A stretch of 64,000 nt of DNA from Babesia bovis T2Bo (lineage: Eukaryota; Apicomplexa; Aconoidasida; Piroplasmida; Babesiidae). A program made the translations under genes and the position numbers. The DNA is taken from NCBI RefSeq assembly GCF_000165395.2, contig NC_010574.1, positions 744,001 through 808,000 of the forward strand, written 5' to 3'. This document shows, in pieces, positions 3,978 to 56,025 of this stretch (position 1 is the stretch's first letter; each line of letters begins with the position of its first letter). The notes under the pieces are model-generated. The model worked only from the letters and a program-made list of their open reading frames with translations, made no database searches and was not told the DNA's origin.

Positions 3978-6487
3978 TCAAGGATCTCCTCCTTGACCTC
4001 AAGAACCTCCTCGAATATGTCATAGGACACCTCCCAATTACTCTCGTCGAAAAATTCGTCGTAACCACGTTTGAAATCGTTGAAGCGTTCCTGTAAAAAT
4101 GTTGTTCTTTAATGTAGTGTATAAATTACCTGCTTAGATAGGTAGTCCATGAGTTTAGCCGCAAGTGCAATGAATGCTTCTTCGGCAACTTGGCGTTTGG
4201 CCTTATACTGCTTTTCGTATTCTTCACGAGCCTTCTCATCAACAATGTCGTATCTACGACTGTATTCATCTAGATTTTTCTTAATGTGCTCAATCACGGC
4301 CTTATCCAACATAGGTGGAGGCGTAGGCCTGAACTCAAAGCTGTAAAAGTTTTCACGGCGTGCCATGTATAATCTCCTTCCTTGGAAAGTCCATATACAG
4401 AAACCAGCTTCAGCTGAGTATCTGAAGGTATCAGTGCTCGGCACAAGGTTCTGTGATGGCATGGGAACACAAACGCTTGTTGCCAAATAACGACCGCAAG
4501 GGCTCCACTTCATCGCGTTCATCATGAAGTGCTCGTCCTTGTACAAGATTTCCAACTTGTCATTGTTACTGAGCATACAAAATAAAAGTGTTCCTTCCCC
4601 GCTCAGTGAACCTAGGACGAAATAGTTACCGGTAGGTGACCACAGAATCTTATTCATCTGTGACTGAAGGTCATAAGTGGCAACGCATACAGTATCCCTA
4701 GCAGTGCCTTCATCAGATACACGGTAGAATTTAATCGAACACATGCTCATCTCCTCGTCCTTAACAACCAATGCGAAACGTTTGTTTCCACCCTCTTCCC
4801 AGTACAGGTTTTTCACAGTGGCATCCTCTATCTTGATAGTGTCCACAGGAATGTACTTTTCACGCAGTCGGAATAGATCTAATTGATAAAAGTTCTTGCG
4901 TCCCTTCTTACCCGTCTTCCTATATATGGTAGTCATGAGGCAGAAGCATTCACCCCTCGGATGCCAATGCATTGATGATTGGCAAACATTGTAAACGTTT
5001 CTAGCACTCAACTCACGGCGACTGGGAATATCAATCAATACAAGACGCGCTGTGAACTATGAGGAAGGAGTAAATATATAAATATATTCTCTAAGGACAA
5101 TGTGCAATGGCAAAACATGTACTGTACGGATCATAGACCACTATGTTATAGTGATCAACATTAAATACAGACATTGATATGGCAGACACAAATTAAGGTA
5201 GACCTTGCAATCTACCACACTCAACGGTCTGCTGCCGAGGAGGTAAACTCCCATACAATGCACACGTTGAGAATCACAAGGAACAGTGTGACAGAAATAT
5301 GAACGGGAATGCAATGAGAGCTTACCTGGAGTGTCTAGAGTCCCCGGTATAAGTACAGAAAGAATGTCATCTGTTGGAGACCAATCAAATCTCTCAGCAG
5401 CGTACTTTAGAGGCGCTGGCTTACCCTCGGCATCTCGTATGAGCTCCATCTCAGGTAGCTGATATACGAGAATCTCATTACCGTCCGTCGATGGGTTGAG
5501 CCTTGCGATATACTTCCCGTTATGGTTCCATAAGAAACGTAAAACGTCAGTACCCATCGTTGAAATTTCACGTGATGAGAAACTATATAGTTTTTCACCA
5601 GTTATAACATGCCATATGCAAACGGAATTATCTGATTTGTCAGAATCACTAGTACCATCCCAAGTAAGCAAATATTCTTCATCAGGTGAAAATGACACCT
5701 TTTGAACGTTCCTGTGTTCAAAACGCACCTTTAACTCAAAATCAGGGCCACCATATAAAGCAATACCAGGTCGCCTGTAAAAGACAAGATATGAACCATT
5801 ACGACTCCATTCAACCTTTTGGTCGGTCCATACCCTCTTACCCTGTGCTCGCTCGCGCTCACCATTATAAACTAATATGGGTTCACGTTCAAGCGGATCG
5901 AACCAGTTAATTTCGGTGTGGTCGCCGTATCTAACCACAAATTGATCTAACATACGGTCACTGTCAAATAACCAAGTACGAAGGTCATCTCTAGTAAATC
6001 CAAAAGTATTCAGAGCTGGCATACACTTATTCTCATCACTGACTATTCTCTCAAAATCGTCAATTAGCGCTGATTTCAACGTGTGCGATGCATCAAACTT
6101 GGACATGTTAATGTGCTTCTGAGCTTTCACAGCTTCCATGTGATTTGCAAATGTTAAAAATGCCACACCACTAGTGTTACCATCCTCATCATAAGGCATG
6201 TCGACCTTCATATCCTTCCCAATATTATATCCCTTCTTCTCAAAATCCTTGAGTAACTTCTTTCTCAAAATCTCCATAAGCCTATCGTACTTCTCCTGAG
6301 TAACTAAAGGAAGACCAGTGACGATAATAGTATTTGGAAATATAGTACTCAATTCAATGGGATGTTCCATTAATGCTAATCTTTCCATCTCCTCTTCATC
6401 TTTGCTGTCATCATGGTCCGACATCCACTCCATGAGGCCATCGGCCAAATCCTCAGCAGAAAGGTCGGACTCCCTTATCACAACCAT
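3974..6487 (-). CDS. eIF3b: translation initiation factor eIF3 subunit B
   Basis: Exons in order of translation: 6487-5326, 5049-4130 and 4090-3974, giving 732 residues. The introns are 276 and 39 nt. After an acidic N-terminus comes an RRM (TIIVTGLPLVTQEKYDRLM and later GVAFLTFANHMEAVKA, about residues 50-135), then a WD40-type propeller (VWTDQKVEWSRNGSYLVF, then VLFIDIP-like LVLIDIPSRREL). It ends in the helical tail that in other eukaryotes contacts eIF3a and eIF3i. Joining at the 276-nt intron restores the family sequence TPARLVLIDIPSRREL, which fixes both splice sites. It is a core scaffold of eIF3 and acts on the 40S subunit. The TAA stop at 3974-3976 shares bases with the apicortin stop, so the two genes have no 3' spacer. 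Confidence 0.92.
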
Positions 6488-16635: not shown

Positions 16636-19293
16636 TCACGATAGTCTATTTGGCTGCACTGCTAGCGCCCTCTTGAATAATGCTTCAAGCATCTCTATAG
16701 AAGGTCCTGTTTTACTGAATCTGTCCTTTTTGGTCAATATGGGTTGTTGCCCAGAATATGTGGGTGGTTTCACATCAGATTCCTGACCATTCCGTTCTTG
16801 GTTAACTTGATCCAGATCTATAGAGCCCACCTTTTCGGCATTTGATAGCCTCAAGAGCTCTGCAGCCAGGTCGTCAGTGTCACAGCGATTAAATATTCCC
16901 AACATGTTGGTTTTATGCACAACGCCATTTTGCTTGGTGTTGGGTACATCGCTATTCATATGCTTTTTTGTTATTTTAGCTGCAATTCGTTTTCCTGTTG
17001 ACATTGTTCTTAACTCATCTATATGCGGCCTCATCCTTTTGAGCAGTTCGTCGAGGTCGCTGCGCTGTGCCACACTTAGTACCCGCTGTATGACGTAGTT
17101 CCCAAAAGGATGTAGCATTAGGTCTTTCAAGGTATCATATGGTGCCTTAACGAACTTTTCTACTAGTATGTTCCTTATTCTTGTGTGGGTCAATATCAGG
17201 CACTTTTCAATAACGTTTGAGCTGAATTTATGCTTAGCATAGAGAGTCGCCTTCGGCGCAACCGCCTTGACTATGCGAGCATTGACATCCATGTTCTTTA
17301 GTTTTAGGATGTACTGTACTACGTAGTTCCCGAAAGGATCTTGAATCAATTCCAGCGTGTGTTCAATCAGTGTTTCGACAAGTTCGTCACGTTGCCTGGT
17401 GTTGGCAGCGTCAATACAGCGCTGTATGACGCAACATCCATGCCTATGAGTGGCAAACATAAGGCTTTTCTTCAATATCGCTTGGTGAATAAACTCGCAA
17501 TCTTCAGGGGGCAATACGCTAAGACACTTCTGAATGACGTGGTTGCCATTAATATCAGTTACCAAGGTTTCCACTGAAGGGGACAAAAGTTTAGTAACCT
17601 TAGCAATTTGTTTAGGTTCGTGCAAAACCTCAATCAGCCTTTGTAGTGTTCTAGTCCCGTGCATGTTAAGTGATATATCGATTAACATCGGTCCTGCAAC
17701 ATCAATTATTGCGTCTATTTGCTGCGTAGAGCATACGGTTATTAGTTTTTGGCACAGGTAGTTCCCAAAAGGATCCATCATTAGGTCCACCAGATTATCC
17801 ATAACCCCTTCAAGTATTGTTTCAACTACTAGGTAATCTTCCGTTTCCAACATCTTTTGTAATAACCGACAACCCGTTTGATCTTTGGCGATTATCGCTA
17901 TATTGCCGGCGATATGTTCATCGGTGTTATTAATCAGTGTGGATACATTCAGTGAGTCATAGCACAATAATTCTGTGTTCAGCTCACCCGGTCGTAGAGT
18001 TCTATTAGCATCGTTTTGATATTGCCCAGATGAAAGATTAACTGCATTGCAGTAACTGGTGTTGTAACGTCTCACAGTTTTATTATCCGGCACCTCCCGC
18101 CTGAACATGAGGTTACCCTCAATGCCGATATTGTAATACGCACTATTAACCACATCTTGGAAGTAATTGATCGAATCACCATTGTTTCCCTCAATGTTTG
18201 GCATGTAACTATTAGAGTATGATCTAGATTGACTCACATTGTCATATGGAATCTTTCCATTCAAAGTATAGATACCCTCACTGGTGTTGATTGATCCGTC
18301 ATGCTCATTATGGGTTGTCTTTGGTTGTTCATTCAGTGAGTATTCATCCATTTCACTAAGGCTACTTAATGCAGGCCGCATCGTCGGGGTATCAAGTTGT
18401 TTTAACATCGACTCTGAGAGGCTGTCAAATTTTACCGCCAAAGAGTGGGAGCACAACTGGTCATCTTCAGCATCACTATATCTGGTTGATAGCGAATCAT
18501 AGTGGCCATATTTATCATTATCTGGGATTTTTACAAAACGAATCCTGCCATTTGATTGCATTTGTTGAGTGATTGGATATGAGCAGAATCCATTCTCCAT
18601 AATCATATTGTTAGATAATGGTTGTTTCGAAGCCACAGACAACATAGAGTTTGATCGTTTCATTTTTTGATCACATTTGTTATCTTTAGTAGTATTTCCA
18701 TCTTTAATGGCGTTATATCTGGCTTTAAAATCAGTCGGGTTTGTTTCGCCTTCTGTATAGGATAAAAGTTTGACCGCTTCTATACTACTGGGAAGAGGTT
18801 CCTCATCGTTACCAGTTTCGATAAATACTGTATGCAATGGTTTGTTCCATACTCCATCAACGTTGTTTACGATTAACGAAGGACGGGCATTTTCACATAT
18901 TTCAGGGGTGCGTACATCTTCATCCTTAATATTATTTTCTGTAACCAAATGTTGTGATTTGTCACTTCGGTCATCCTTTTCTATATTGAAAGCATATTTT
19001 CCAGTGTCTGCTCGTTTTAAGGTACTGCTTATCTCTAGAGATTTTGTTGCACCATATCGATATCCGTTAGAAGGTGAACTACATACCGAAGCGTATGTTA
19101 CTACAGGCATGGTATCGGGTGATCTAGTTGATTTTACGCCAGATGAAGCATCATTAACCAGATCGCCCTTTTGAATCGGTCGTACGTTTGCCACCATTAT
19201 TGCTTTTGCCCTACGTCCAGAAATAGTTGATATAAAAAATTTGATTCGTTTATATGTTGATTTAACACAATATAGTCCTTGTTGCACTTTCAA
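16636..19293 (-). CDS. Pumilio/FBF (PUF) RNA-binding protein
   Basis: A single-exon frame of up to 885 residues. The first ~450 are low-complexity, rich in Asn, Ser and Asp, typical of apicomplexan PUF proteins. The C-terminal part holds a Pumilio homology domain, about residues 480-820. Its repeats show aromatic/charged triplets such as DPFGNYLCQKL, NMHGTRTLQRL, DINGNHVIQKC, THRHGCCVIQRC, DPFGNYVVQYI, HKFSSNVIEKC and HPFGNYVIQRV, so at least seven or eight repeats are visible. PUF proteins bind 3' UTR UGUA-type sites and repress or store mRNA, in Plasmodium often during sexual or transmission stages. The start is uncertain: the upstream ATG at 19293 gives a basic, Phe-rich N-terminus, while an internal Met near 19197 (MVANVRPIQKG) is an equally good start. 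Confidence 0.88.
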   Translation of the reverse strand: MKVQQGLYCVKSTYKRIKFFISTISGRRAKAIMVANVRPIQKGDLVNDASSGVKSTRSPDTMPVVTYASVCSSPSNGYRYGATKSLEISSTLKRADTGKYAFNIEKDDRSDKSQHLVTENNIKDEDVRTPEICENARPSLIVNNVDGVWNKPLHTVFIETGNDEEPLPSSIEAVKLLSYTEGETNPTDFKARYNAIKDGNTTKDNKCDQKMKRSNSMLSVASKQPLSNNMIMENGFCSYPITQQMQSNGRIRFVKIPDNDKYGHYDSLSTRYSDAEDDQLCSHSLAVKFDSLSESMLKQLDTPTMRPALSSLSEMDEYSLNEQPKTTHNEHDGSINTSEGIYTLNGKIPYDNVSQSRSYSNSYMPNIEGNNGDSINYFQDVVNSAYYNIGIEGNLMFRREVPDNKTVRRYNTSYCNAVNLSSGQYQNDANRTLRPGELNTELLCYDSLNVSTLINNTDEHIAGNIAIIAKDQTGCRLLQKMLETEDYLVVETILEGVMDNLVDLMMDPFGNYLCQKLITVCSTQQIDAIIDVAGPMLIDISLNMHGTRTLQRLIEVLHEPKQIAKVTKLLSPSVETLVTDINGNHVIQKCLSVLPPEDCEFIHQAILKKSLMFATHRHGCCVIQRCIDAANTRQRDELVETLIEHTLELIQDPFGNYVVQYILKLKNMDVNARIVKAVAPKATLYAKHKFSSNVIEKCLILTHTRIRNILVEKFVKAPYDTLKDLMLHPFGNYVIQRVLSVAQRSDLDELLKRMRPHIDELRTMSTGKRIAAKITKKHMNSDVPNTKQNGVVHKTNMLGIFNRCDTDDLAAELLRLSNAEKVGSIDLDQVNQERNGQESDVKPPTYSGQQPILTKKDRFSKTGPSIEMLEALFKRALAVQPNRLS

Positions 19294-28244: not shown

Positions 28245-31200
28245 ATGGCGAGTTACTTATCGCAACTCCGGCGGTTTAAAGTTAACCGTGCCAACTTAGT
28301 GGAGAATGAACCTGCTCCGGTAGTGGTCAACAACACCACGATTATCCGGTATGTGCATTGTTGTATGTCTATCACTTTTCAGCAAACTGCAAGATATATC
28401 TAGATCACCATCTCAGGATGAAGGGACGTTAAAAGAATACATACGTATACTATGTGAGGAGATGCATTGGCAGTGTGCCAGTGAATCCGAGGTTAATGAT
28501 GTTACCAATGGGTTAATCGATATGGTCACAACAGAACACTCGTTACTGGGATCAGTTGTCCACGAGATTGTAGCTAAATTTAGGCGCATAGAGGGCGAAA
28601 ATGGCAAGATTGACATCGTTGACAAGGTATTCGATAATTTCTTGGAACTGAAAAAACAGTTGCGTCACATTCTTATCAACAGTACCTTGGACGTACCTCT
28701 TGAAGGCGATAGTTTAAAAATAGTTCGTGAAATATTACGCCAATATCCAGGTTCTATAGACGTGGATTCAGTTACTATTTTCACATCGGTCCATTTGAAT
28801 CCGAAGTATCGCGGGATGCGTTGTTTCTTCTTCAAGGAAGCCGATGGCCGATGCACTGACTTTAGTTATGCTCGGTGTGCTGATGGCGTTCCTGCACGGT
28901 ACCATCGGCTACACAATGTGTTTATAGACGTTCTAGTGGAACTATGTCGCCTATACCCTAGGGTAATAGGCCAGGTGATAGAGTCCTTTGAGAACTTGTA
29001 TCCACACTACAACCTTGCCCTGGAACATCACGTGTCGGTATCTAGGAATTTATGCACTCTTGCTAGAAGGGTACCAGCTTTATTGGGGCCACTGTATCGA
29101 TTGCTGATTACCAAGGTTACTATCATTGACGCCGAGATAAAGTTAGAGGACCCTAGTGAGTTTTGCGAGGAGAAGATTAAGGCGCTGCGACTGGAGACAA
29201 TGCGCCAGCTGGCGTCTGAGTTAAAGAGTGGATCTATTGACATCTCTGAGGCTAAGCACCGTATTGGCAACCCCAACTGGTACCAGGAGCTTTACGCCAC
29301 TGTACGTACTGATGAGGACCTGGATGACATGACGCAGAAGTTGGATGCTGTAATGTCAGTTTTGTTCAGCTCGCTGACTAGGCTACTAAATGACAATATG
29401 GACACGCCCGCTGTGCAGAAACCATCAATGCCCGAGTTAACAGAGGACTCCTCTGATAGTGACGGAAGCGACTCTGTATCCACTAGTGGCTACCATTCCG
29501 TATCCAGTTATAGGAATGAAGAGGTCAATTATCCAGATCATGGATTACGCAGCAAGTCTGTTTCGGGTGTCGTCAAATCAGAAGTGGGTTATAATGTCCC
29601 AACGGTTGCTGACAGGATAGTGTCTGAATTACTCGACGTCTTCGAGGATGTAGTGCTACCAACGCAACGGTGTAAATACGTCCAGTTCCTATATATCCAC
29701 GTGGCTTCTATGAAGACTGCATGGTCCCATTTATTCCTGCAACGGCTGTTACTTATACTATATGACGAAGAGGCCCATTCAACAAGTCGACGTTATGCTA
29801 GTAGCTACATAGCCTCGATAGTATCGCGTGCTGATTTTATCCAGGGCCAAGTTGTTTGTAGTGTGGTGTACTATCTGTTTTCCATATTGGCCAAGTTCGA
29901 ATATCTCTTGGTGCAGTGTCAGGATTCGGGTGCTAGTAGTGTGACTTCTGATTTTACCCTTAGGTCCCAAAATCGCTTTGGTGAATCCGGCAGTATAAGA
30001 TCGCATTCACAAATGAATCGATTCTATTCCTTATTACAGGACATACTTCATATAGTCTCTTACCATGCAGGTACACTAGGTAGTTCACCTCGTTGCGTGC
30101 GTTACCTCCAGGACAAAAGGTTATCTGTATGTACTTTCCTAGACAGCCATTTGTTCCCAGTTGGCCGTATGCGCGAGACTGTAGTTGATAACGCAATATC
30201 CGCGACATCTATAGTCCCCGAGCTGCGAACACTGCACATATCACTGGTTAAAGCCAGGGAAGCGGTATTCAGCAGTGACAACGCGTGTGCCAAAGGGTAT
30301 TCCACAAAAGTGATAGAAGGAAGTTTTCCCTATGACTCATTTGCTCTGTATCACTCCCGGTACTTCATTCGCAATAACTATCGTTTACATGGTTACTACG
30401 AGCTAAACAAGGACTTGGTGGCAGTGAAGCAGGAGCTGGTAGACATGGCACCTGATTACGTGGTAACTAAGGAACCAACAGCTAGAAAATGCATTCCAGT
30501 ATCGGCGTTACGTGACATTAAGGTTGAATGTACAAAAAAAGTTCCTCATGGCCTCGATTTGATACCGGATGGCACCAGTATCGACGTGCCAATGAAGAAA
30601 TCAGATCTTGACAGCGATATTCCCGAGGACAGGATAGTTGACCAGTTCATGCAGGCGACGCCTACTCGTCCGGAGCCGTGGCAAAGTCCAGTTCCGAGAT
30701 TGCAGAATCAGGGATTCGCTGTCGTGGGTGATCTTAACACGTCGGGGTACACCACTACCGAGGGTGGATTCTCCGACACAAAACATGATAACGCCCTTTG
30801 TTCATCACAGGATAGCGGTAGCTCCATTGCAACGCACATTCGGTCGCGGCTGCAACGGAAACACAGGAGGACACAAAAAATCGATATGGATCCCTTGTTC
30901 GATTTTTACGGGGAGGATGTGTCCGACATTTCAGAAGTCGACTTTAGGAGCGACAACCTGAAGCGTTTAAAGAGCTGCTCGAGCGCCGGTACTGAGTACT
31001 CCACAACCGGGCCTGAGGTCCCGGCTGACCATACCAACGACGACCAGCAGCTTATAGTTATCGGCATTGACCAGTTGGATGACTTTGAACTGTCACTTTC
31101 AAGCTCGATTTTGGTTAATGCCCCCAAGCGGAGCAGTAAACGAATATTCGACCTCTTGACAGCGACAGCGGCTTATAAATCGGCCATAGTCAATTCCGAG

Positions 31201-31245
31201 GTGACAAAGAACATACATAAGCGGTGTCAGGATTCACTCAAATAG
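28245..31245 (+). CDS. RRN3: RNA polymerase I transcription initiation factor RRN3 (TIF-IA)
   Basis: Exons 28245-28348 and 28383-31245 with a 34-nt intron give 988 residues, longer than yeast or human RRN3 because of disordered inserts. The HEAT-type core is recognisable: ELCRLYPRVIGQVIESF, PALLGPLYRLLITKVTIIDAEI, then LDAVMSVLFSSLTRLL. Next comes LDVFEDVVLPTQRCKYVQF and the block RRYASSYIASIVSRADF, all in the family order. A Ser/Asp-rich acidic linker lies at about residues 360-390, and the last ~250 residues are unstructured and charged. RRN3 bridges RNA polymerase I to the core factor at the rDNA promoter. In other eukaryotes it is a growth-control point through phosphorylation. Its last 8 coding bases overlap the 3' end of the AMMECR1 gene on the other strand. 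Confidence 0.9.
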
Positions 31246-51786: not shown

Positions 51787-52893
51787 GTGTACTATATTAA
51801 ATGCCAACAATATATGTATTACTGTAAACATCGAAACACAGAGCCGAAGTTACAGCTATCAAACCAAAACGATACTCCTTAAATGTTTCATCTCATTAAT
51901 ATCTTATGTGTAAAGAGACTAAGCGTCTGTGTAGTGTACACATGTGAATGATTAAGGTATCATTCACTGAAGTAAAATTCGTTGATAACACACGATCACT
52001 CGATTGTACAGTCATATGCCAACCATGATGAATAATATAATTATAAGTATCATTGTAGAACTATGATTATCTAAAATAGTATGAAGATCACGAGTAAGGA
52101 CATCATTAGGAGCAATGGTAGACGTAATAGATTGACTTGAAAAAATTAAATAGACCTGACTGTTGTGAAAAACAACAAAAGTTGCAAGATTCTATAATAT
52201 AACATTAAAAGGACCCATATGACCGCTGCCTTCTATGATAAAAAATATATACATATATATAAAAGAGCGAATCAAAAATATGCACAACACACTATTCTGA
52301 TTACAAAATGATAAATATTCAAATGCGGCTCACGAATTTGAGCCACGTGGTCACAAAAACACATTCGCAGGACCATTGTACGTACGGTATAAAAGTAAAA
52401 CGAAACAAAAGGAAACAATATGATGGCGTCTGTATGACAATAAAAACGTCAATGTATAACAAATCAAAAGCAAATCAAATAAATAAGGCGTTAAAGACTG
52501 TTCTCTGGCAATTCGACGTTGATTTTCGACCGTTGCGCCCCACCCAGGTCCCAGTGGATGGACGACCACAGTCAAGAGAAGCCATTTGACAACATAAACA
52601 TACTGGAAAATGATGCTTAAGGCAACATAGCTTGTCTTTTGCGATATTTGCTATATTGTTGCATAGAAAAGAGAACACGACGAGTTGAGCTGCTAGCTGC
52701 CGCAAAGCGGTGAAGCTCCTCGTTTGTTCTTCTATCCATAGGTTTAATCTATCGGATATAAAATCGCATTTGATTTATTTATGTGATGTTATTAGTTAGT
52801 GTATTACGTAAAAACATCAGGGTAAACATATTGTAGACTCCTGGAGATATTTCAATATTTAGACAGGCTGAGTCGACACACATCAACAATAAA
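51787..52893. other. divergent spacer between release factor and eIF4G
   Basis: About 1.1 kb. Most is AT-rich and featureless, with a palindromic GTGTACAC at 51934-51941. A distinctly GC-richer block at about 52,505-52,590 (TTGCGCCCCACCCAGG) stands out and is described with the small frame next to it. Confidence 0.45.
52617..52739 (-). CDS. possible small basic peptide gene (40 residues)
   Basis: A complete ATG-to-TAA frame encodes 40 residues starting MDRRTNEELHRFAAASSS and ending in a basic stretch (YSKYRKRQAMLP). Its composition is more protein-like than neighbouring spacer, and it adjoins the GC-rich block at 52,505-52,590. Alternative splicing from its Arg codons into the next frame is possible but not decidable. 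It might equally be part of a non-coding RNA gene. No family recognised. Confidence 0.25.
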   Translation of the reverse strand: MDRRTNEELHRFAAASSSTRRVLFSMQQYSKYRKRQAMLP

Positions 52894-55800
52894 ATGGCGA
52901 CGGAACAAGGGGATAATCCCGATGAAAATGCTCCGAAGAGTACAACTACGTTCAATGTCGATGCACCAGAATTTAATCCTAATCCAACGCGATCATCTGG
53001 GACGTTGAACGCTGATGCTCCGGAGTTCATACCTGGTAAACTCGGTACATATGACGGAGGTCTAGGGTATGTTTCAGTTAGTGATATGAAACATGGGAAG
53101 AGGTACAATAGAGGTGCCTACCAGAGACCATCGCAAATGCATCAAGCGGGGATGCAATACCACCCACGTTGGTCCCCGCAATACGTTCCAATGTGGGTTC
53201 CATATTCAGTAGAAATGGATAGAAGCGGTGCTGTTTACGATTATTCGCCATACCATTACGGTCAACGAAGAGGATATGATGGTCATCCCAGGCATAACAG
53301 GTTTTCAAAGCATCCATCAGCAGATGGAGAGCTACCGAAAAGGGAACCGCGAACACCTCATGGCATGTCGGTGCATGCTAACGCTGGAACATATTCGAAA
53401 TATTCTGATTCGCAAGGTGTTGAGACAACCCATGTGGATTCAGTTTCAGTTGGGCCTTCCACTGAGGATGGACCAGTAAAAGATGCTACTTCTACGCCCA
53501 AGAAAATGACGTTGCAAAATTCAAAGGATAATCAAAGCACATGGGCAGACAAATTCCGTCAAACAAACGCCGAACAAGGGGAGCCAGATGTTGTTAAAAC
53601 AGAGGAACCAACACAACCAGCACCTTCATGGAATGGTAGACCGACTTTTGCTGAAATGATGAAGAAAGCCGTCGGAAGAGATCGAAAGCTGCAGGAGACT
53701 CCACCTGAGTTACCAGTTCAACCTGTAGTAGATAATGCTGAACCCGTGAACGAGCGTCTTGAAGAAGTAACTCCCACTGACACTTGTGTTGCGAAAGACA
53801 ACAAATCACCCGTCAATGTGCCGCCTCAAGTTGTGGATGTATCTGTGGAAAATAAGACCGTAACAGAAGAGGCATCAGAGCCTGTACAGGATCCCATATC
53901 TGAAACAGCAGAGGTATCGATGTTGGCAATGGATTTAGATAAATGTCACATTAACCAAGAACCACCAGTTGAAGACTATACTACAACTCCGAAACACAAA
54001 GAGGCAGAAACAACTGATGTGGAGACCGAAACATTTCAAAATCAAGAGCCTATTGTTAAACCAGAGGACGATGGTGAATTGGAAAATCGCGAAATTCCAA
54101 TTCAGGAAACGAAGGTCGAACCAAATGCAGAAGCCGTTTTGGAAGATGAGACTGAATACCAAGAGGTTGAAGAGCCAAGTGAGGTTGTTGATAAGGATTC
54201 CTGTTTGATTTCCGCAACTGATGACAGTGTTGATGACGATGTAGCTGAAACAAATGAGGGCACTAAAATGATCTATGATGGTCAATACACAGTAGACAAA
54301 TTGTTGGCTTGTGGTTTTGAATTAAAGAAACATTATATGGAAGAGAAGCTACGTTGGGGTTTCATGGGTCCTGGCCGTGAATCCAAGGGCTCTGACCATC
54401 GTCGTGGCGTAACTTATGATGACAGAACTAATAACTCGAGATATAAGGGTGAAAACTGGCCGACGCAAAGGCGCTCTGCACGATATGATGTTAAGAGCTT
54501 TGGTTCTTCTAACAAAGGTGTTGAGTTTTCAAGGGATCAATTAGAAGCAGTATCAATACCCCGTGCCTCGGAATCCTCCTGGATTATTAAACAAGCAAAG
54601 CTTAAAATGGACAAGGAACAACAATTAATCCGCAAATTAATGGGTTTGCTAAATCGTTTAACCGTAGAGAAGTTCGACACCATTTACAAGCAGGTTTTGA
54701 GTAGTGGTGTGGAGACATATAACCAAGCGTTTGTGCTTGTCAAAATTATCTTTGAAAAGGCTATTACCCAACACCATTTCATTCCCATGTATGTGGAATT
54801 ATGTGCTAAGCTATCGTATGATTTAAATAATTTTACCGATAATGAAGATGCATCTGTCGCACAGGGTGATAGCTCCACAACTGGTAAAAGTGATCAGAAG
54901 GCAACTAGAAGGAGTGACTTCATGAAGATATTACTCAACTGTTGTCAGGATTCTTTTGAAAATAATTTGAAGCCAATGGAGTGTCCACCTGATTTAGAAG
55001 GTGATGATAAATTTGAATTTGAGCTTAAATATAAGCACAGAATGAGAGGTAACATGATTTTCGTTGGTGAACTGTTTAAACAGAAGCTATTGGCAGCAAA
55101 ATTACTTATAACGTGCTTGAGTGAAGTCTTTGCTAAACGTAATGAATGCATTGCAGCTACCGGAAGAATAGAAACCGGTGACAACCACTTGGAGGGCATG
55201 TGTACACTTTTGCAGACTGTAGGTAAATGTTTCGACACCGACAAATGGAAATATTCCGGGGAATTTGAAAAATATATTCAAATGCTCACTGATTTGGGAA
55301 GGAATCCAAATATTTGTTTCCGTATAAGGTGTCTTATACAAAATGTCCTAGACAGCCGGCATGGTAACTGGACTACATCCACTCCATATAAGCCAGAGGG
55401 CCCTTGTAGGCTCCAAGAACTTAGAACAAAGGTTATGGAGCAGGAGAAGCAACAGGATGAAAACGCTTGGAGACTGAAGAAGCGTGGTAAGAATCTTGAA
55501 ATCAAGACTCCGTCGTCTAAACCTTCACCTGCTCCAAACGTTTTAGCAAATCCCATAGTTATTGAGCCATTGTCATCAGAGGAAATCAAGAGGAGAACAC
55601 GTGGCATTGTTAAGGAGTTGGTCATGTCACACGATGCTGCAGAGGCTTCGCTGTGTATCAGTGAGTTGAACCTTGCACAAGGTCAGGATGTGGAACTGTT
55701 CTGCCATATATTCAATGCTGCTCTCGAGTCGTGTGCTAAAATCACAGCGGAAAACGAGCGGCATATTGTTGCCAAGTGGATGGTTGACCTTGCTATTGGT

Positions 55801-56025
55801 CGATTATCGCAGGAGTCCTTGGTAAAGTGGATGAAGGGTTTCGTTACCGACGAAACGCCAGAACATGGCTACAGTATGATGATCGAGGACTATCCGGTGG
55901 TGCCTCTTATGTTAAAGGAGCTCCTTGTATGCATGAAGGAGAGATACTCCAACGTGTCGGGTTTTGACGAGGTCTCCAAAATTATCGAAAACGATATATA
56001 TCCTAACGCGGCCATGATTAACTAA
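52894..56025 (+). CDS. eIF4G: translation initiation factor eIF4G with PAM2-like motifs
   Basis: A single-exon gene of 1043 residues. Two PAM2-like motifs lie at the extreme N-terminus: FNVDAPEFNP (residues 20-29) and LNADAPEFIP (38-47), matching the LNxxAxEFxP consensus that binds the MLLE domain of PABP. A long acidic, disordered region follows. The eIF4E-binding motif YxxxxL-phi is present as YTVDKLL at residues 465-471. The MIF4G domain covers roughly 570-855 (KLMGLLNRLTVEKFDTIYKQ, AFVLVKIIFEKAITQHHFIP, GNMIFVGELFKQKLL). A MA3-like helical domain ends the protein (EEIKRRTRGIVKELVMSHD, about 895-1040). It scaffolds eIF4E, eIF4A and PABP on capped mRNA. The first ATG follows ACAATAAA, a plausible leader. 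Identification is strong from MIF4G plus the eIF4E motif. Confidence 0.9.
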   Translation: MATEQGDNPDENAPKSTTTFNVDAPEFNPNPTRSSGTLNADAPEFIPGKLGTYDGGLGYVSVSDMKHGKRYNRGAYQRPSQMHQAGMQYHPRWSPQYVPMWVPYSVEMDRSGAVYDYSPYHYGQRRGYDGHPRHNRFSKHPSADGELPKREPRTPHGMSVHANAGTYSKYSDSQGVETTHVDSVSVGPSTEDGPVKDATSTPKKMTLQNSKDNQSTWADKFRQTNAEQGEPDVVKTEEPTQPAPSWNGRPTFAEMMKKAVGRDRKLQETPPELPVQPVVDNAEPVNERLEEVTPTDTCVAKDNKSPVNVPPQVVDVSVENKTVTEEASEPVQDPISETAEVSMLAMDLDKCHINQEPPVEDYTTTPKHKEAETTDVETETFQNQEPIVKPEDDGELENREIPIQETKVEPNAEAVLEDETEYQEVEEPSEVVDKDSCLISATDDSVDDDVAETNEGTKMIYDGQYTVDKLLACGFELKKHYMEEKLRWGFMGPGRESKGSDHRRGVTYDDRTNNSRYKGENWPTQRRSARYDVKSFGSSNKGVEFSRDQLEAVSIPRASESSWIIKQAKLKMDKEQQLIRKLMGLLNRLTVEKFDTIYKQVLSSGVETYNQAFVLVKIIFEKAITQHHFIPMYVELCAKLSYDLNNFTDNEDASVAQGDSSTTGKSDQKATRRSDFMKILLNCCQDSFENNLKPMECPPDLEGDDKFEFELKYKHRMRGNMIFVGELFKQKLLAAKLLITCLSEVFAKRNECIAATGRIETGDNHLEGMCTLLQTVGKCFDTDKWKYSGEFEKYIQMLTDLGRNPNICFRIRCLIQNVLDSRHGNWTTSTPYKPEGPCRLQELRTKVMEQEKQQDENAWRLKKRGKNLEIKTPSSKPSPAPNVLANPIVIEPLSSEEIKRRTRGIVKELVMSHDAAEASLCISELNLAQGQDVELFCHIFNAALESCAKITAENERHIVAKWMVDLAIGRLSQESLVKWMKGFVTDETPEHGYSMMIEDYPVVPLMLKELLVCMKERYSNVSGFDEVSKIIENDIYPNAAMIN

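Follow-up and report, generated by a model that had tools for sequence, protein, structure and literature searches.

The eIF4G gene and its N-terminal motifs

In the 64,000-nucleotide stretch of the Babesia bovis T2Bo genome analyzed in this study (the window; contig NC_010574.1, positions 744,001 to 808,000), an uninterrupted open reading frame on the plus strand at positions 52894 to 56025 encodes a 1,043-residue eIF4G with two PAM2 motifs in tandem at its N-terminus. The start codon is the ATG at 52894; the nearest upstream in-frame stop lies at 52834, with no in-frame ATG between the two. Pfam assigns a MIF4G domain to the protein (E = 6e-31), located at residues 580 to 823 (positions 54631 to 55362, plus strand), and the same domain was recovered in a MIF4G search of the genome, in the structure model, and in the fold search. 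Approximately 110 residues N-terminal to this domain, YTVDKLL (residues 465 to 471; positions 54286 to 54306, plus strand) matches the YxxxxLφ pattern exactly and is a candidate eIF4E-binding motif. The C-terminal part is an MA3-like helical region (residues ~895 to 1040; positions 55576 to 56013, plus strand); Pfam MA3 run on this protein alone stays below the cut-off (E = 0.056, 13.8 bits versus 23.2), a profile built from 29 sequences matches the MA3 chains of PDCD4 and eIF4G, and the predicted model is helical across the region. A PDB search with the whole protein matched eIF4G chains, and the best protein matches come from Babesia ovis and Babesia sp. Xinjiang. The protein is therefore an eIF4G by its eIF4G-type MIF4G domain, the exact YxxxxLφ motif N-terminal to it, and the MA3-like region that follows, and it is nearer to eIF4G than to PAIP1, which is not the closest relative of its MIF4G domain. 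The identity given to it in a preliminary description of this DNA is thus upheld.

Motif 1 is FNVDAPEFNP (residues 20 to 29; positions 52951 to 52980, plus strand) and motif 2 is LNADAPEFIP (residues 38 to 47; positions 53005 to 53034, plus strand), each being recognized by Pfam, by the genome search, by pattern matching, and in the homologue alignment. The preliminary description had reported both motifs, in an interval (52951 to 53037) that covers the pair but includes one extra glycine codon at its end. The Pfam PAM2 family (PF07145) matches the protein in two stretches with 29.1 bits (E = 6e-7), against a cut-off of 20. For counting, we used a strict pattern, [LF][NS]..A.EF.P, together with a wider, relaxed one. 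When the first 110 residues were shuffled, at least one strict match appeared in 1 of 200,000 sequences; with the entire protein shuffled, the frequency was 1 of 20,000. Neither set contained a sequence with two matches. A PF07145 search of the 8.23-Mb, 8-contig genome in six frames (E ≤ 10, limited to the best candidates) returned four matches, of which two are those in eIF4G, one is at the N-terminus of eRF3 (GTPase domains by Pfam), and one is in an ataxin-2-like protein that has an LsmAD domain. The latter two score under the Pfam cut-off, and the eIF4G pair scores over it. Since both eRF3 and ataxin-2 are well-established carriers of PAM2, the search behaves as expected. PDB searches with each motif peptide gave no matches, such short queries being insensitive. 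The tandem PAM2 arrangement is a real feature of this protein.

Conservation in piroplasms and in a wider clade

The homologue counts rest on three protein-database searches, two of which give the best 120 of 554 and the best 120 of 170 matches. Among the matches listed are 15 piroplasm homologues, 12 of them with a species assignment, namely Babesia ovis, B. sp. Xinjiang, B. ovata, B. caballi, B. bigemina, B. duncani, B. microti, Theileria equi, T. annulata, and T. orientalis (three entries). All 15 carry the strict motif and two relaxed copies, and 12 carry two strict copies. Across the 16 piroplasm rows, B. bovis included, the commonest residue accounts on average for a fraction of 0.84 per column in motif 1, a value lowered by misalignment of the B. 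microti row there, and 0.93 in motif 2, compared with 0.51 in the rest of residues 1 to 120; the best-conserved 10-residue segment starts at residue 38. In a four-row piroplasm alignment, short conserved blocks also occur downstream of the PAM2 pair and ahead of the eIF4E site, at positions 53179 to 53205 (QYVPMW..Y), 53539 to 53559 (TWAD.FR), and 53629 to 53661 (WNGRP.FA.MM), and similar SWAD/SWAAR blocks occur in some nonpiroplasm rows of the clade described below.

In a MIF4G-domain tree of 78 rows (quick IQ-TREE run; support by the Shimodaira-Hasegawa-like approximate likelihood ratio test [SH-aLRT] only), the piroplasm proteins and 47 others form one clade (SH-aLRT 99), from which 13 eIF4Gs of opisthokonts and plants are separate. 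The strict motif is present in 24 of these 47 rows, where shuffling predicts a mean of 0.005 rows, the relaxed motif in 31, and two or more relaxed copies in 16. Of the remaining rows that the searches gave, 168 in number, none has a strict motif, three have a single relaxed one, and none has two or more; these rows are not independent tests, because vertebrates dominate among them, and 13 of them were placed on the tree. Pfam PAM2 matched at E ≤ 1 in 16 of the 31 clade rows with the relaxed motif, but neither in any of the 16 motif-less ones nor in any of 30 controls chosen among the 168 other rows. The PF07145 cut-off is passed by P0134 (Perkinsus chesapeaki), P0034, and P0143; P0123 and P0035 give matches that do not reach it, and P0128 gives none. 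The alignment by which the preliminary description proposed to check the motifs therefore bears them out in the piroplasms and in about half of the other clade members.

Organisms are assigned to 5 of the 47 rows, and the strict motif is found in the proteins of Symbiodinium microadriaticum, S. natans, and P. chesapeaki; many of the remaining rows are probably dinoflagellates, judging by how they group on the tree. Every strict motif precedes MIF4G. Its first residue falls among residues 1 to 107 in all proteins but the two Symbiodinium models, P0132 and P0133, in which the motif is at residues 767 and 677, respectively, likewise upstream of MIF4G. We read these long gene models as probable fusions. 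The number of relaxed copies rises to three in P0024 and four in P0037, and two strict motifs are combined with a candidate eIF4E motif in P0018, P0019, and P0034 (exact in P0034, YxxxxLK in the other two). P0143 (2,468 residues) groups with the piroplasms (SH-aLRT 97) and passes the Pfam cut-off with relaxed, not strict, motifs; its position is unsure because of its long branch, and it is provisionally taken for a nonpiroplasm apicomplexan. Residues ~1 to 220 of P0123 hold several PAM2-like motifs, one of which has tryptophan in place of phenylalanine (LNPNAPIWTP), similar to the PAM2w of LARP4. The distribution of the motif suggests that eIF4G carried PAM2 already in the ancestor of the myzozoan clade.

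PABP, the proposed contact, and its alternatives

The preliminary description made its proposal depend on an MLLE domain in the local PABP, and one is present. The Pfam MLLE search of the genome, which was made in six frames and exon by exon, so that a split domain could be missed, found a single domain (92 bits), at the C-terminus of a PABP open reading frame with four RRMs. It is identical to the MLLE of human PABPC1 at 32 of 59 positions, including all seven residues of the Phe/Trp pocket as listed in PMC7356810. The passages of that source concerned with PAM2 give the consensus LNxxAxEFxP and name the phenylalanine as a main determinant of the PAM2-MLLE interaction; they also list eIF4G among the MLLE partners, for which the title of the work cited there concerns the RRM domains.

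We consider it probable, on the strength of these sequence comparisons, that the tandem PAM2 of piroplasm eIF4G docks on the MLLE domain of PABP and thereby joins the cap and the poly(A) tail. The phenylalanines F27 and F45 of the two motifs would enter the MLLE pocket at the C-terminus of PABP, YTVDKLL would retain eIF4E on the cap, and the MIF4G and MA3-like parts would bind eIF4A and eIF3. The junction between cap and tail would then be formed by eIF4G-PAM2 and PABP-MLLE, either replacing the contact of eIF4G with the RRMs or adding to it. The two motifs, 18 residues apart, may increase avidity or anchor two PABP molecules of the same tail. Since eIF4G, eRF3, and the ataxin-2-like protein all carry PAM2, the latter two would compete with eIF4G for the same MLLE.

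Several observations weigh against this docking or against its generality. The Leu pocket of the local MLLE is identical to the human one at two of five residues, with one leucine changed to isoleucine and the substitutions T576E and P600E (residues as in PMC7356810). At the conserved place, the YxxxxLφ motif is exact in 6 of the 16 piroplasm rows and is a near variant in 8; P0003 contains no eIF4E pattern, and P0017 has an exact one only at another place, approximately 296 residues before MIF4G. Even the relaxed PAM2 motif is lacking from 16 of the 47 other clade rows, among them two with an assigned organism, i.e., Vitrella (P0140, with only 239 residues before MIF4G) and a Karlodinium transcript (P0051). 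Ten of the 16 have fewer than 240 residues before MIF4G or no initial methionine. The other six (P0026, P0027, P0036, P0038, P0051, and P0137) have an initial methionine and more than 300 residues before MIF4G, and look long enough to show the motif, which argues that PAM2 losses or PAM2-less paralogues exist. Finally, the matches listed in the three protein-database searches, two of them giving the best 120 of 554 and the best 120 of 170, include no protein from Plasmodium or Toxoplasma, possibly owing to a length limit on the candidates; for these two genera, the evidence comes from the literature.

Of the alternatives, the one that survives best, although we hold it to be unlikely, is that PAM2 is auxiliary, with the main eIF4G-PABP contact made via RRM1-2 and PAM2 tuning messenger ribonucleoprotein storage, recruitment to stress granules, or poly(A) stability. 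RRM1-2 of the local PABP are indeed well conserved and keep the methionine corresponding to M161 of human RRM2, a residue that is presumably important for the eIF4G contact. Toxoplasma eIF4G1 and eIF4G2 are moreover described as entering stress granules (PMC11237481). A slight argument against this explanation is that the sole stretch matched in human eIF4G1 chains lies over MIF4G; the RRM-binding peptide is so short that a search of this kind would miss it.

In PAIP1, PAM2 and MIF4G stand in the same order as in the Babesia protein, and PAM1 is an acidic C-terminal PABP site. A further alternative is that the protein is a PAIP1-type partner of PABP, stimulating translation by bridging it to eIF4A and eIF3 and not to eIF4E. 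The name PAIP1 was given to a Plasmodium protein with PAM2 and MIF4G in a 2011 study (PMC3090354) and is retained in later Plasmodium papers. The profile and fold searches, which place the window protein nearer to eIF4G than to PAIP1, make this explanation still more doubtful than the preceding one. Docking of the motifs on the MLLE domain of another protein, such as a UBR5-like one, is very improbable; UBR5 does have an MLLE domain (PDB matches), but the only one found in this genome, with the reservation on split domains given above, is that of PABP. Chance or low-complexity resemblance, conceivable for so short and degenerate a motif, is rejected as next to impossible in view of the shuffles, the conservation against a variable background, and the controls (strict motif in 0 of the 168 other rows).

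Paralogues, neighboring genes, and known systems

The MIF4G search of the B. bovis genome gave five matches, i.e., the window eIF4G, L008 (contig C5), L007 (contig C4), L009, and L010 (weak, below the cut-off). L009 has MIF4G and MA3 domains and is taken by us to be CWC22. L008 (L011, G000:C5:674000-680500) is a second eIF4G-like protein with a 1,537-residue open frame, in which a repeat of the EKDAEKDT type is inserted into MIF4G; neither a PAM2-like motif nor a YxxxxLφ motif before MIF4G was found in this frame. The 345-residue frame of L007 likewise contains no PAM2 and no YxxxxLφ, although upstream exons could be missed in a single open frame. Both proteins match eIF4G chains best, with L007 also matching PAIP1 weakly (E = 0.013), and on the MIF4G tree neither falls within the clade that contains the window protein, both having long branches.

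Elsewhere in the window, positions 28351 to 31245 hold a single open reading frame that encodes DUF3223 at its N-terminus together with an RRN3 domain, a combination that we do not know from other proteins. On the minus strand, positions 16636 to 19293 encode an RNA-binding protein with PUF repeats, and an open reading frame of the same strand at 5141 to 6487 gives a partial RRM and a weak match to an eIF2A-type β-propeller, possibly representing an exon of eIF3b.

Like the known PAM2 partners of MLLE (PAIP1, PAIP2, eRF3, and ataxin-2; PF07145), the Babesia protein has the LNxxAxEFxP motif, a score over the cut-off, and an MLLE-bearing PABP in the same genome; it differs in that the motif is on eIF4G itself, in tandem, and at the extreme N-terminus. 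In animals and yeast, eIF4G contacts the RRMs of PABP. Human eIF4G1 and yeast p150 share with the Babesia protein the MIF4G domain, an MA3-like domain, and an eIF4E motif before MIF4G, but their known PABP contact is with RRM1-2, made through an N-terminal site according to the summary in PMC6379680, whereas Babesia eIF4G has PAM2. The same source describes a related arrangement in Leishmania, in which eIF4E4 binds the MLLE of PABP1 via PAM2 and, in the assays presented there, binding of eIF4G3 to PABP1 was not detected. In both cases, a subunit of the cap complex would sit on the MLLE of PABP via PAM2 and link the 5' and 3' ends; on the other hand, the motif is on eIF4E4 in Leishmania and on eIF4G in Babesia, and the two uses of PAM2 are probably convergent, not homologous.

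Plasmodium falciparum PF11_0086, of which PF3D7_1107300 is presumably the newer identifier, resembles the Babesia protein in having MIF4G and PAM2 and a reported PABP contact, and differs in being named PAIP1. Its PAM2 was added from domain context in the 2011 study, which proposed it as PAIP1 and cites a contact with PABP, strong in the yeast two-hybrid assay (PMC3090354), and PF3D7_1107300 is listed as PfPAIP1 in the tables of an mRNA-bound proteome (PMC4933991). PF11_0086 is probably the Plasmodium member of the Babesia eIF4G family. The proteins pulled down by Toxoplasma eIF4E1 are eIF4G1 and eIF4G2, each of which carries YxxxxLφ, along with PABP, eIF4A, and the majority of the eIF3 subunits; the main text of that report does not mention PAM2 (PMC11237481). 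For dinoflagellates, a 2018 review states that eIF4G lacks the regions that bind eIF4E and PABP and probably does not circularize mRNA, with the remark that the sequences available at the time looked incomplete (PMC6027434). The clade sequences that combine PAM2 with a candidate eIF4E motif would argue otherwise. In the portions of the open-access PMC literature consulted, we found nothing that ascribes PAM2 to an eIF4G of alveolates, beside the Plasmodium PAIP1 prediction.

The preliminary description regarded a PAM2-based bridge in eIF4G as a distinct way of closing the mRNA loop in these parasites. The motifs, the eIF4G identity, and the MLLE-bearing PABP speak for such a bridge. The PAM2 feature itself is not peculiar to these parasites, being present in Perkinsus and Symbiodinium as well, and part of it had been recognized earlier in Plasmodium, where the protein was called PAIP1 (PMC3090354). 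PAM2 in eIF4G would thus represent a variant closed-loop scaffold that is broader than first supposed and was partly anticipated.

The contact between eIF4G and PABP is a textbook step of translation, and the clade sequences offer a concrete candidate for how it is made in alveolates. They suggest that Babesia and organisms such as Theileria, Perkinsus, and Symbiodinium may join the ends of their mRNAs by a contact unlike that of animals, fungi, and plants. More tentatively, and with somewhat less than an even chance in our estimation, the myzozoans (apicomplexans, perkinsids, and dinoflagellates) may close the mRNA loop mainly via eIF4G-PAM2 and PABP-MLLE, with eIF4G, eRF3, and ataxin-2 competing for one MLLE surface. 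If so, initiation, termination, and ataxin-2 would share a single MLLE in these organisms, whereas animals and yeast use separate surfaces of PABP. The arrangement would then be an independent counterpart of the solution found in Leishmania eIF4E4, and the Plasmodium PAIP1 would be an eIF4G; the label of that mRNA-bound protein is brought into question. For the parasites among these organisms, the contact may represent a difference from the host in a core complex of translation.
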